Both the position numbers and the translations under genes were made by a program. From the NCBI GenBank assembly GCA_945888535.1, contig CAMDAN010000067.1:1-14018 (forward strand): a DNA stretch of 14,018 nucleotides, written 5' to 3'. This document shows positions 7,499 through 10,716 of the stretch, piece after piece. This DNA comes from Bordetella parapertussis. GTDB taxonomy: Bacteria; Pseudomonadota; Gammaproteobacteria; Burkholderiales; Burkholderiaceae_C. The notes beneath the pieces are model-generated. The model was not told the origin of the DNA, searched no databases, and was given only the letters and a program-made list of their open reading frames with translations. Numbering within the stretch: position 1 is the stretch's first letter; every line of letters begins with the position of its first letter.

Positions 7499-8648
7499 GG
7501 GTCGCCAGCGTCGGCATATCCTGACGCAGTTGATGGTGAAGATCGGTGAACTTATGCTCAAGATGGGCCACTGCTGAAGGATCATCCAGCCAATGCATGA
7601 CCGCTTTCGCCAGCGCTTGGGCCTGAACCTGCTCTTGCAAAAATTCAGGAATCAAGCTTTCATTGCACAAGATATTGGGCAAACCTATCCAAGGCAGCAA
7701 ACGCTGCCGGTTGGCAATTTGCCACGAGAGCCATTGCATTTTGTATGCAATAACCATGGGGCGCTTGTGCAAAGCGGTTTCCAAGGTGGCCGTACCGCTA
7801 GCCACCAGTGCCACATCGCAAGCCGCCTGAACCTCGTGCGAACGGCCCATCACCAAGTGGACATGCTCCTGCATGCCGGCCTGAGCGATGGCCGTCTCGA
7901 CCATCGGCTTTAAAGGACCGTGGGTAGCAAGTACAAACTTCAATTCGGGTCTTTGTGTGTGCATAAGCCGAGCCGCTTCCAGAAAGGGCAAGGCCAACCC
8001 CTTCACTTCCGAAGGTCTGCTGCCCGGCAGCAAGGCCACGATGGTGGCCTCTGTAGGCAAACCCAAGGCTTGACGCGCCTGCAAGCGGTCAGGCGCGAGT
8101 GCAATCACATCGGCCACTGGGTGGCCGACGAAGGTGCCCTCAATCCCATGTTGGGCCAACAACTCTGGCTCAAAAGGGTAAATGCACAGCACATGGTCCA
8201 CGCTGTCACGAATTTTTTGCACACGCTCTGGTCGCCAGGCCCAAATGGAGGGACACACCAACTGGACCGTGGGAACACCCTTTTGCCGCAGCAAGCGCTC
8301 CACGGGCAAGTTGAAGTCGGAGGCGTCCACACCCACATACAGGTCCGGGGGCGAGGCCAGCAAATCCTGAATCAAGGTCTGCCGGATGCCATTGATGTGG
8401 CGGTAACGCCAAAGCGCTTCCACCAAACCGCGCACCGACAGCTCGTCACAGGACCAGCGCGACACAAAACCAGTCGCATCCATCTGCGGCCCGCCAATGC
8501 CCGAAGCTCGCAAGAGCGGCCAGGTTTTTCGCATGCCTTGCAACAATAAGGCCGCGAGCATGTCGCCCGAGCGCTCTGCAGCGACCATGCTCACACGCAA
8601 GTCTGGCTTGAACGCACTCAGTGAAGGCTCTGGGCTTGACAAATCCAT
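7470..8648 (-). CDS. lpxB: Lipid A disaccharide synthase
   Basis: 392 residues. LpxB, a GT19 glycosyltransferase at the inner membrane, condenses UDP-2,3-diacyl-glucosamine with lipid X to form the tetraacyl disaccharide. Visible landmarks: SMVAAERSGD near 20-29 (family form usually AGEASGD), YVGVDASDFNLP near 104-115 with the Asp of the catalytic GxDxxDF motif, CPSIWAWRPERV near 132-143, FVGHPVAD, the donor-binding LLPGSRPSEV, VASGTATLETAL, and the C-terminal LPNILCNESLIPEFLQ. The ATG at 8646-8648 shares one base with the aminotransferase stop (TGATG) and has AAGG five bases upstream, so it is preferred over an in-frame codon at 8681. If the upstream pair is GnnA-GnnB, LpxB must accept a 3-amino, 3-N-acylated donor and acceptor. 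Confidence 0.96.
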   Translation of the reverse strand: MDLSSPEPSLSAFKPDLRVSMVAAERSGDMLAALLLQGMRKTWPLLRASGIGGPQMDATGFVSRWSCDELSVRGLVEALWRYRHINGIRQTLIQDLLASPPDLYVGVDASDFNLPVERLLRQKGVPTVQLVCPSIWAWRPERVQKIRDSVDHVLCIYPFEPELLAQHGIEGTFVGHPVADVIALAPDRLQARQALGLPTEATIVALLPGSRPSEVKGLALPFLEAARLMHTQRPELKFVLATHGPLKPMVETAIAQAGMQEHVHLVMGRSHEVQAACDVALVASGTATLETALHKRPMVIAYKMQWLSWQIANRQRLLPWIGLPNILCNESLIPEFLQEQVQAQALAKAVMHWLDDPSAVAHLEHKFTDLHHQLRQDMPTLATHAIQKVLAA

Positions 8649-9748
8649 CACGCCTTCAAAGCCTGACGAATCACGCCGCATACCTCGTCAACGGACTCGT
8701 TGCTCAACTCTGGGTAAATCGGGAGCGATAAGCAGCGCTGTGCCACCGACTCGGTGACTGGGAAATGGAGCCCTGCAGAAATGCCGGCAAACACCTTTTG
8801 CTGATGCAGGGGCACTGGATAATAAACAGCGCTGGCAATTTGGTGCTCGGTCAAGGCCTGCTGAATGGCCTTACGGTCATCGGTCAGCAAGGTGTACTGG
8901 TGGTAGACGTGCAAGCCGATACCATCTTCGCAGGGCGTTCGCAAGTTCAGGAAACACAAGCCAGCGCTGTACCCGTGAGCGACGCGGCGACGCTCTTGGT
9001 TGTAATGGTCAATCAACGGCAGCTTAGCCCGCAGCACCACGGCCTGGAGTTCATCAAGTCGGCTGTTGTAACCCACAATGTCGTGGTAATAACGCACCTT
9101 GCTGCCGTGGTTGCGAAGCATGCGCAGGGTTTCCGCCATTTCGTCCGACTGTGTGGTGACCATGCCGCCGTCGCCAAAGCAGCCCAAGTTTTTACTGGGG
9201 AAAAAGCTGAATGCGGCCACATCACCCATCGCGCCGGTCTGGATGCCACCGATGTTGGCACCAAAAGATTGAGCGCAGTCTTCCACCAATTGAAGCTGGT
9301 GTTCTTTGGCCAAGGCCATCAAAGGCGTCAAATTGGCCGGCTGTCCAAACAAATGCACCGGTAACAAGGCCTTGGTCTTGGCGGTGATGGCGCGCTGGGC
9401 CTGCGCCACGTCAATGTTGAAGGTGCAGGGATCGATGTCAACAAATACAGCTTTGGCCCCCACATAAGCGATGGCCTCTGCGGTGGCGATGAATGTGAAA
9501 GGCGTGGTGATCACTTCGTCGCCAGGCCCAATGCCAGCAGCCAACAAGGCCAAGTGCAATGCATCGGTGCCGTTGGCACAAGTGATGGCGTGGGCCACAC
9601 CAAGGTACTCGGCCGCCTCTTTCTCAAAGGCTTGAACGTTGGGGCCCAAAATAAACTGCGCAGCCGTCAAGGCTTTCAAAAATGCAGGTTCCAACTGGGG
9701 CTGGAGATCGCGGTACTGGGCGACCAGATCGACCATAGGGATGGGCAT
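8648..9748 (-). CDS. gnnB: DegT/DnrJ/EryC1-family sugar aminotransferase, GnnB-like
   Basis: 366 residues, a PLP-dependent aminotransferase of the DegT/DnrJ/EryC1/StrS family that converts a nucleotide keto-sugar to an amino-sugar. It shows MVDLVAQYRDLQP, FILGPNVQAFE, CANGTDALHLAL (phosphate-binding), the PLP-contacting Asp157 in VEDCAQSFGA, the Schiff-base Lys186 in SFFPSKNLGCFGDGG, and YNSRLDELQA. It closely resembles WbpE/WlbC, the aminotransferases of UDP-GlcNAc3NA synthesis. The placement between lpxA and lpxB, directly after a Gfo/Idh oxidoreductase, instead matches GnnB of Acidithiobacillus ferrooxidans, which aminates UDP-3-keto-GlcNAc to UDP-GlcNAc3N. The ATG at 9746-9748 has AAAGGA five bases upstream. 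Family is certain; the GnnB role is inference from context, and the symbol should be read so. Confidence 0.78.
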   Translation of the reverse strand: MPIPMVDLVAQYRDLQPQLEPAFLKALTAAQFILGPNVQAFEKEAAEYLGVAHAITCANGTDALHLALLAAGIGPGDEVITTPFTFIATAEAIAYVGAKAVFVDIDPCTFNIDVAQAQRAITAKTKALLPVHLFGQPANLTPLMALAKEHQLQLVEDCAQSFGANIGGIQTGAMGDVAAFSFFPSKNLGCFGDGGMVTTQSDEMAETLRMLRNHGSKVRYYHDIVGYNSRLDELQAVVLRAKLPLIDHYNQERRRVAHGYSAGLCFLNLRTPCEDGIGLHVYHQYTLLTDDRKAIQQALTEHQIASAVYYPVPLHQQKVFAGISAGLHFPVTESVAQRCLSLPIYPELSNESVDEVCGVIRQALKA

Positions 9749-9774
9749 AGCGGTCCTTTCAAATATTCAGAAAA

Positions 9775-10716
9775 TCAGGAAATCAGACGGGTGGCTTCGG
9801 TGATGCGCTGTACAGCTTCCAGCGCACGGCGTCCAGCTTCACCATTCACTTTGGGGGGGCGTCCCTGCCGAACGCTCTCGACAAAGTCGAGGATTTCGGC
9901 AAACAAAGGATCGGCCTCACCAAACGATTGCTCTTGGCGCTCAATCGCCAGCTCGGAATCGGCCGCAGGCGTGGCAGCACCTCGGTAAGTGGTCAAGGTG
10001 CGGGCCTGGAAATCGAGGGAGTGACAAGCTTGGTCTTGAAAAACACGCATTTTGCGCTCGCTCTTAGCGCTCACGCGGCTGGCGGTCACGTTGGCCACGC
10101 AGCCATTGGCAAAACGAATCCGAGCATTCGCAATGTCAATGTCAGTGGTCAACACGCGCGCACCCGAACACTCCACGCTTTCCAGCTCGCTGTTGACCAA
10201 GGACAAGATCAAATCCACGTCGTGGATCATCAAGTCCAGCAGCACACTCACATCGGTGGCGCGTGGCTTGAAAGGGGCCAAACGTGAGCTGTCGATGAAA
10301 CGAGGGTTGGACAACAAGGGCTCTAAAGCCAAAGCGGCGGGATTAAAACGCTCCAAATGCCCGACAGCCAACACGCAATGATTTTCTTTGGCCAGTCGAA
10401 TCAAGGCATCGGCCTGCTCCAAGGTGGTGGTCATGGGTTTTTCCACCAAAACATGTACGCCCGCCCGCAAAAATTCGGTGCACACATCGTAGTGACCTTG
10501 CGTGGGCACCACGATACTCACCGCATCGACCTGACCGATCAGCGATCGGTAGTCCGTCAAGGCCGCACAGTTGAGCGGAGCTGCCACAGTATCGGCTTGA
10601 TCTTGGCGGCTGTCTACCACCGCCACCAGCTGGCACTCGGGAATTTTGGCGTACTTTTGAGCATGAAATTTGCCCAGATAACCAACGCCAATCACGGCGC
10701 AACGCAACAGGGCCAA
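9775..10716 (-). CDS. gnnA: Gfo/Idh/MocA-family oxidoreductase, GnnA-like
   Basis: 313 residues. An N-terminal Rossmann fold (about 1-120) carries the NAD(P)-binding GVGYLGKFHAQKY, VVDSR at the end of the second strand, and the family's VLVEKP with the catalytic Lys93. The C-terminal domain has LLDLMIHDVDLIL, with His165 in the usual catalytic position. The predicted reaction is oxidation of the 3-OH of UDP-GlcNAc to a 3-keto sugar, the GnnA step, to be followed by the aminotransferase 26 bp downstream. A WlbA/WbpB-like role on UDP-GlcNAc uronate is the alternative, but no other gene of that pathway is present here. Start is a TTG with a full AAGGAGG five bases upstream; an in-frame TGA 12 bases before it rules out earlier starts. 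It lies 51 bp after lpxA. A run of seven C on the coding strand falls at 9853-9859. Confidence 0.78.
   Translation of the reverse strand: MALLRCAVIGVGYLGKFHAQKYAKIPECQLVAVVDSRQDQADTVAAPLNCAALTDYRSLIGQVDAVSIVVPTQGHYDVCTEFLRAGVHVLVEKPMTTTLEQADALIRLAKENHCVLAVGHLERFNPAALALEPLLSNPRFIDSSRLAPFKPRATDVSVLLDLMIHDVDLILSLVNSELESVECSGARVLTTDIDIANARIRFANGCVANVTASRVSAKSERKMRVFQDQACHSLDFQARTLTTYRGAATPAADSELAIERQEQSFGEADPLFAEILDFVESVRQGRPPKVNGEAGRRALEAVQRITEATRLIS

Follow-up and report, generated by a model that had tools for sequence, protein, structure and literature searches.

The window analysed here, the whole 14,018 nucleotides of contig CAMDAN010000067.1, carries an lpx locus in which a gnnA-gnnB pair lies between lpxA and lpxB. 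The open reading frame (ORF) list and profile searches give the minus-strand order bamA (cut)-ompH-lpxD-fabZ-lpxA-gnnA-gnnB-lpxB-rnhB-SpoU methylase-carA-lysE-carB-greA, with ompH and greA as putative names. A sequence-only reading of this DNA had placed a Gfo/Idh oxidoreductase and a DegT aminotransferase between lpxA and lpxB; both ORFs lie there with strong Pfam matches, and the catalytic lysines it called intact are in place (Lys93 within VEKP, Lys186 within FFPSKNLG). The start codon of gnnA is TTG, preceded by AAAGGAGG, and the lpxB ORF overlaps the end of gnnB by 34 bp. We refer to lpxA-gnnA-gnnB-lpxB as the cassette, and to LpxA and LpxB of gnn-free loci as native. The four cassette genes are:

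9775..10716, minus strand: gnnA, predicted UDP-N-acetylglucosamine (UDP-GlcNAc) 3-dehydrogenase (Gfo/Idh/MocA), 313 amino acids, Lys93; Pfam GFO_IDH_MocA, E 5e-32
8648..9748, minus strand: gnnB, predicted DegT-family UDP-sugar 3-aminotransferase, 366 amino acids, Lys186; DegT_DnrJ_EryC1, E 4e-120
10768..11586, minus strand: lpxA, cassette isoform (Arg at E. coli position 160, Val at E. coli position 258, catalytic His125 retained); TIGR01852 and NF003657 matched above cut-off
7470..8681, minus strand: lpxB, cassette isoform; TIGR00215 above cut-off

The locus is a mosaic, which escaped the sequence-only reading; the edges of the recombined block fall outside 8648..10716, the stretch discussed there. 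The window appears to come from a freshwater bacterium of a Rhodoferax-like genus: at least four Rhodoferax are among the LpxD relatives listed (best 120), at 72-73% identity, with about 10 relatives at 92-97%, and the nearest genome, G001, has 27% of the sampled 31-letter words in common with it. Protein identity to G018, a gnn-free sister genome in this genus, is 88-98% for greA, carB, lysE, and carA and 92-99% for fabZ, lpxD, ompH, and bamA; within the block it is 58% for rlmB, 71% for rnhB, 54% for lpxB, and 72% for lpxA. Identity to three Limnohabitans cassette loci (L035-L037) is 83-95% from rlmB through rnhB, lpxB, gnnB, and gnnA to lpxA (about 6000-11590; rlmB and rnhB 83-88%), then 80-81% for fabZ, 64-65% for lpxD, and 52-56% for ompH and bamA; beyond the opposite edge, carA is at 82% and lysE is absent. 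The carB protein is non-discriminating, at 97-98% to Limnohabitans over the first 321-324 residues, and its DNA identity is 81-82%, versus 88% to G018. The cassette LpxB is 83-85% identical to those of the three Limnohabitans cassettes and at most 57.6% identical to 28 native LpxBs of its own genus.

In steps of 200 bases, DNA identity to G018 falls at the left edge from 87% (5800-5999) to 66% (6000-6199) and 53% (6200-6399), and rises at the right edge from 76% (11400-11599) to 88% (11600-11799), where identity to Limnohabitans L036 runs 86, 74, and 70% across 11200-11799. Both edges are also found in assembly G001 and the right edge in G028, the 2 of 103 genomes of the Rhodoferax-like genus with gnnA. 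LpxA was matched in 34 of the 37 same-genus genomes searched, at 98-99% in G001 and G028 and next at 72%, and in 28 gnn-free loci (L007-L034) lpxA is followed directly by lpxB and rnhB. The remaining features are:

6111..7585, minus strand: SpoU-family rRNA methylase (rlmB) and rnhB, hitch-hikers in the transferred block by their identity pattern
11593..13025, minus strand: fabZ and lpxD, native flank, 99% and 92% to G018
281..5947, minus strand: greA, carB, lysE, and carA, native flank on the other side, 98, 98, 88, and 96% to G018
5950..6200, no strand: left recombination edge, where DNA identity to G018 drops
11400..11600, no strand: right recombination edge (lpxA 5′ end/lpxA-fabZ junction), at a switch in DNA identity

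Within the cassette, the stretch 7400-8800 (lpxB and the 3′ end of gnnB) has 74-92% DNA identity to G001, against 96-100% towards rnhB and mostly 88-98% towards gnnA, marking a second, smaller exchange. The LysE-family transporter gene (4092-4748) lies between carA and carB, as in G018, G036, and G008; it is not at that site in Limnohabitans L035-L037. Promoter- and terminator-like sites in the window are within chance (4 versus 3.0 +/- 1.9 and 13 versus 10.2 +/- 3.2), and an Rfam scan of the window gave zero matches at gathering score.

The cassette isoform of LpxA is strictly linked to gnnAB. GnnA is present in 23 of 90 Limnohabitans genomes and LpxA in 88, each with a single match at E 1e-40; 23 of these LpxAs are 80-91% identical to that of the window and 65 are at 64-70%, and the 23 genomes with the cassette LpxA are exactly the 23 with GnnA. 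The order lpxA-gnnA-gnnB-lpxB is kept in all 23, in the window, and in 3/3 genomes of a third genus, Serpentinimonas (one GnnA being identical to that of Serpentinimonas raichei); carriers include Limnohabitans sp. Hippo3, G3-2, and T6-20, to whose named records three of the genomes are 100% identical over 3936 bases. The ratio of nonsynonymous to synonymous change (dN/dS) of gnnA and gnnB is 0.04-0.10, so both are under purifying selection, and given this ratio and the order kept in 23/23 Limnohabitans and 3/3 Serpentinimonas genomes the arrangement is not due to chance. Among 399 genomes of the family, LpxA was found in 389 and GnnA in 8; the full-length LpxAs of at least 72% identity among the matches listed number seven, from 7 of these 8. 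The eighth, G325, has a GnnA at 45% beside a second LpxA (36%), with a standard LpxA (60%) elsewhere; this second LpxA has Thr at E. coli position 160 (L245, 6471-8122). G505 comes close, with a truncated LpxA at 73%, but this protein has His160 and the genome is not one of the eight.

The core of the block can be told from its passengers. In Serpentinimonas G200 the four cassette proteins are 69-80% identical to those of the window, with rnhB at 58%, rlmB at 52%, lpxD at 56%, fabZ at 70%, and carA at 73%, and a window-like rnhB (85-89%) lies beside native lpxA and lpxB in 5 of the 33 gnn-free Limnohabitans genomes read; rnhB and rlmB are therefore regarded as hitch-hikers.

An alignment of 29 cassette LpxAs with 62 native ones (28 Rhodoferax-like and 34 Limnohabitans rows, one genome twice) has 15 columns, among those with an E. 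coli residue, where the two types have no residue in common. Position 160 is Arg in 29/29 cassette and His in 62/62 native proteins; position 258 is Val, Ala, or Pro in 29/29 and Arg in 62/62. Gln73, Asp74, Lys76, His122, His125, His144, Gln161, Asn198, Glu200, Arg204, and Arg205 are unchanged in all 91. The available text of PMC6408518 gives His125 of E. coli LpxA as the catalytic base, proposes substrate binding by His122, His144, and His160, reports reduced activity for H160A, and suggests that His160, Arg258, Gln161, Arg204, Arg205, and Asn198 may bind acyl carrier protein. According to the same source G173M shifts the E. coli enzyme to 10-carbon chains; Met occupies this position in 29/29 cassette and 59/62 native proteins, and we therefore expect 3-hydroxydecanoyl chains from both types.

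Phylogenetic analysis separates the history of the cassette from that of its flank. In a tree of 58 LpxA rows (native ones sampled; cassette rows 3 Rhodoferax-like, 23 Limnohabitans, and 3 Serpentinimonas), cassette and native rows split at 100 (starred); the Rhodoferax-like cassette LpxAs are nested inside Limnohabitans, with unstarred support (82-92) in this tree and 96 (starred) in a 44-row tree. Forcing all Rhodoferax-like LpxAs together is rejected by the approximately unbiased (AU) test (p 1.2e-34). In a 54-row tree of LpxD plus FabZ the window stands beside G018 at 100 (starred), and forcing together the cassette rows of both genera is again rejected (AU p 2.7e-38); a common history of LpxA and LpxD plus FabZ is thus rejected. 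The nesting suggests transfer from Limnohabitans to the Rhodoferax-like genus. A larger tree of 85 Limnohabitans rows and 6 others (L174 excluded as incomplete, one genome present twice as L175/L206, three native genomes left out) needs three changes of gnn state, and the cassette genomes G601, G551, and G602 fall with gnn-free genomes in a set at 97 (starred); movement of the cassette, or its loss and replacement, has therefore happened several times.

The origin of the pair appears to differ from that of its neighbours. Cassette LpxA shares a clade (98, starred; 25 rows) with native LpxAs from Limnohabitans, the Rhodoferax-like genus, and four further members of the family, and cassette LpxB falls among family LpxBs (94, unstarred) as a clade of its own (100, starred; 6 rows), on long stems of 0.34 and 0.8 changes per column, respectively. 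Import of lpxA and lpxB together with gnnAB from Gammaproteobacteria was ruled out by this placement within the family. GnnA and GnnB of the window, Limnohabitans, and Serpentinimonas form clades at 100 and 99, with mostly gammaproteobacterial, weakly resolved neighbours; GnnA is 60-62% identical to proteins of Halothiobacillaceae and Thioalkalivibrio, and support for the exact neighbour is lacking for GnnA (19) and modest for GnnB (88). Only these two cassette proteins look gammaproteobacterial.

GnnA is nearer the characterised enzyme of Acidithiobacillus ferrooxidans than other Gfo/Idh enzymes, WlbA included. Its K93, D161, M163, I164, H165, D166, and D168 are invariant in 34 sequences and common to 7bvj (7bvj/7bvk being the GnnA structure of A. 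ferrooxidans by PDB title), so that the EKP lysine and the D-L-M-I-H-D-x-D segment are both present. GnnB joins gnnA-linked GnnBs in a tree from which rows below 42% identity were excluded beforehand and in which A. ferrooxidans GnnB is not among the rows. A search for an A. ferrooxidans-type GnnA in a 398-genome sample of the phylum gave a best match of 50% to the A. ferrooxidans protein, and no Acidithiobacillus genome was recognised in it.

It is likely, in our view, that a self-contained lpxA-gnnA-gnnB-lpxB cassette replaced the resident lpxA-lpxB and turned lipid A from a glucosamine (GlcN) to a 2,3-diamino sugar (GlcN3N) backbone, the chemistry being that predicted from the genes. GnnA would oxidise the 3''-OH of UDP-GlcNAc with NAD, and GnnB would transaminate the ketone with glutamate as donor to yield UDP-GlcNAc3N. 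The cassette LpxA, the sole LpxA found in the cassette genomes searched, would then add a 3-hydroxyacyl chain to the 3-amine, and the cassette LpxB would join the resulting diacyl GlcN3N units, giving lipid A with amides at 2, 3, 2', and 3'. Such lipid A should resist deacylases and base. The four genes would form one exchangeable unit, which homologous recombination put in place of lpxA-lpxB of the Rhodoferax-like lineage from a Limnohabitans-like donor, and which probably also moved within Limnohabitans.

Several observations weigh against this proposal. The GlcN3N chemistry is predicted from family membership. GnnA scores 207.9 bits against NF040723, the NCBIfam equivalog for UDP-GlcNAc 3-dehydrogenase, with a cut-off of 450 (the short name ends in Arch, and the profile was probably made for archaea), and an NCBIfam profile search placed GnnB above no cut-off. 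Records of the cassette in the Rhodoferax-like genus are limited to the window and two incomplete assemblies, and gnnA is in 0/51 genomes with completeness of 90% or more and contamination of 5% or less. The G028 lpxA (L006/L002) stays open for 200 residues and is then broken, early in its last quarter, by an in-frame stop, either a sequencing error or a real loss. LpxD, whose step falls between those of LpxA and LpxB, was not exchanged, and physical adjacency alone would keep lpxA and gnnA together too. Finally, of 33 LpxAs from other groups whose genes lie no more than about 6 kb from gnnA, 31 have His160 and 32 have Arg258. Arg160 was thereby ruled out as a universal mark of GlcNAc3N, and the changes are special to this cassette.

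Adjacency and the His160 retained in other groups are what one would see if the LpxA and LpxB differences were drift in a long-separated allele, unneeded for GlcNAc3N, a possibility that we hold to be the lesser one but not slight. It fits poorly with rnhB of the same block, which is untied from gnnAB in the five gnn-free Limnohabitans genomes, and with G200, where the four-gene core is kept above rnhB, rlmB, and lpxD, although fabZ and carA there are at similar levels. The fixed changes, moreover, take in two active-site residues and leave the catalytic ones unchanged.

Rather unlikely is a mixed backbone, in which LpxA would take both UDP-GlcNAc and UDP-GlcNAc3N and lipid A would be partly or conditionally GlcN3N, as in Granulibacter and Capnocytophaga. 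Hybrid GlcN3N-GlcN backbones are on record (PMC8036547; PMC3342949), in Capnocytophaga canimorsus and Granulibacter bethesdensis, which have gnnA/gnnB homologues as here, and the nearest relatives of the cassette LpxA are native Comamonadaceae LpxAs. However, in the available text of PMC3342949 the Capnocytophaga hybrid is tied by its authors to two lpxA genes, whereas one was found per genome here, and a single LpxA isoform strictly linked to gnnAB points to a committed enzyme.

WlbA/WlbC and WbpB/WbpE belong to a UDP-2,3-diacetamido uronic acid pathway and share enzyme superfamilies and C3 chemistry with GnnA/GnnB. A role of the pair in supplying a 2,3-diamino sugar to O-antigen or capsule rather than to lipid A is very improbable. 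DegT and Gfo/Idh families are frequent in such clusters, WbpE is a good PDB match of GnnB (E 2.5e-90), and one gnnA-linked GnnB (L078) clusters with WbpE; but the pair lies inside lpx, the genes of the window include no N-acetyltransferase or 2-epimerase of that pathway, and the lpxA/lpxB isoforms change together with it. The preference of the sequence-only reading for GnnA/GnnB over WlbA/WlbC is borne out, since WlbA is 18% identical and WbpE falls outside the clade of the window's GnnB; a WlbA/WlbC assignment was ruled out by sequence, fold, and gene context. An assembly chimera is scarcely credible, since G001 and G028 (completeness 57 and 77%, about 180 and 260 contigs) carry the same joint, G001 over both edges and G028 over the right one, in sequences that differ from the window (92 and 90% DNA identity).

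GnnAB is already known. The pair was reportedly described from A. ferrooxidans by Sweet and colleagues in 2004 (as cited in PMC5644692), and its gene order there is, according to the sequence-only reading, like that here; unlike the A. ferrooxidans pair, the one in these Comamonadaceae is part of an exchangeable allele that has its own special LpxA and LpxB. Among 80 loci the order lpxA-gnnA-gnnB-lpxB was found in Geobacteraceae and a few others (L041, L044, L060, L064, L073, and L095), so the order itself is not new; those of Geobacteraceae and of a Syntrophaceae metagenome-assembled genome (MAG) have it on one strand (L041, L044, L060, L064, and L095) but are distant from the window (LpxA 42-46%, GnnA 46-55%, LpxB 33-36%). 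According to the available text of PMC8036547, A. ferrooxidans GnnA and GnnB convert UDP-GlcNAc, and C. jejuni with inactivated gnnA and gnnB shows increased TLR4 activation and peptide sensitivity. GlcN3N is reported from Mesorhizobium, Bradyrhizobium, Legionella, and others (PMC8036547; PMC7663294). Mesorhizobium, Bradyrhizobium, Phyllobacterium, and Oligotropha have gnnA and gnnB homologues and amides at 2, 3, 2', and 3', and the available text describes no swap between close species (PMC7663294); in Phyllobacterium the pair lies away from the lpx cluster (PMC5644692).

Other arrangements were seen among the loci compared. In two Rhodocyclales loci (L102, 6001-8806; L109, 6001-8889) gnnA-gnnB is followed by a divergent LpxA (34-35% to that of the window), perhaps a separate GlcN3N acyltransferase, with other lpx genes unmatched on these loci. 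An Ectothiorhodospiraceae MAG (L052, 5234-10745) has two LpxA genes at a single site, with lpxA-gnnA-gnnB facing rnhB-lpxB-lpxA-fabZ, and is possibly an intermediate stage or a two-backbone organism. In five Gammaproteobacteria (L038, L039, L048, L063, and L066) gnnA-gnnB-lpxB, its LpxB 28-35% identical to that of the window, is placed back to back with rnhB and close to a divergent set of fabZ and lpxA, joined in four of them by lpxD.

What is new is that the essential lpx locus has an allele exchangeable between genera; a literature search, mainly open-access, gave among the matches listed no title on GlcN3N lipid A or gnnAB in Limnohabitans, Rhodoferax, or Serpentinimonas. We lean towards the view that freshwater Comamonadaceae have two exchangeable lpx alleles, a native lpxA-lpxB (GlcN) and a co-adapted lpxA-gnnA-gnnB-lpxB (GlcN3N), so that one recombination, inside a genus or across genera, would switch the backbone throughout the outer membrane, in a manner much like the swapping of O-antigen clusters, and that LpxA lost the widely conserved basic active-site residues His160 and Arg258 in changing to an amine acceptor. 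The lipid A backbone sugar is usually regarded as lineage-fixed; here, close species of one genus have alternative versions of an essential acyltransferase and disaccharide synthase, which go with gnnAB being present or absent, and one of them has crossed to another genus. This raises the question of the selective agent behind amide-linked lipid A in freshwater, be it phage, protist grazing, esterases, or pH, and cultured Limnohabitans offer natural matched pairs for finding which LpxA and LpxB residues pick amine over hydroxyl.

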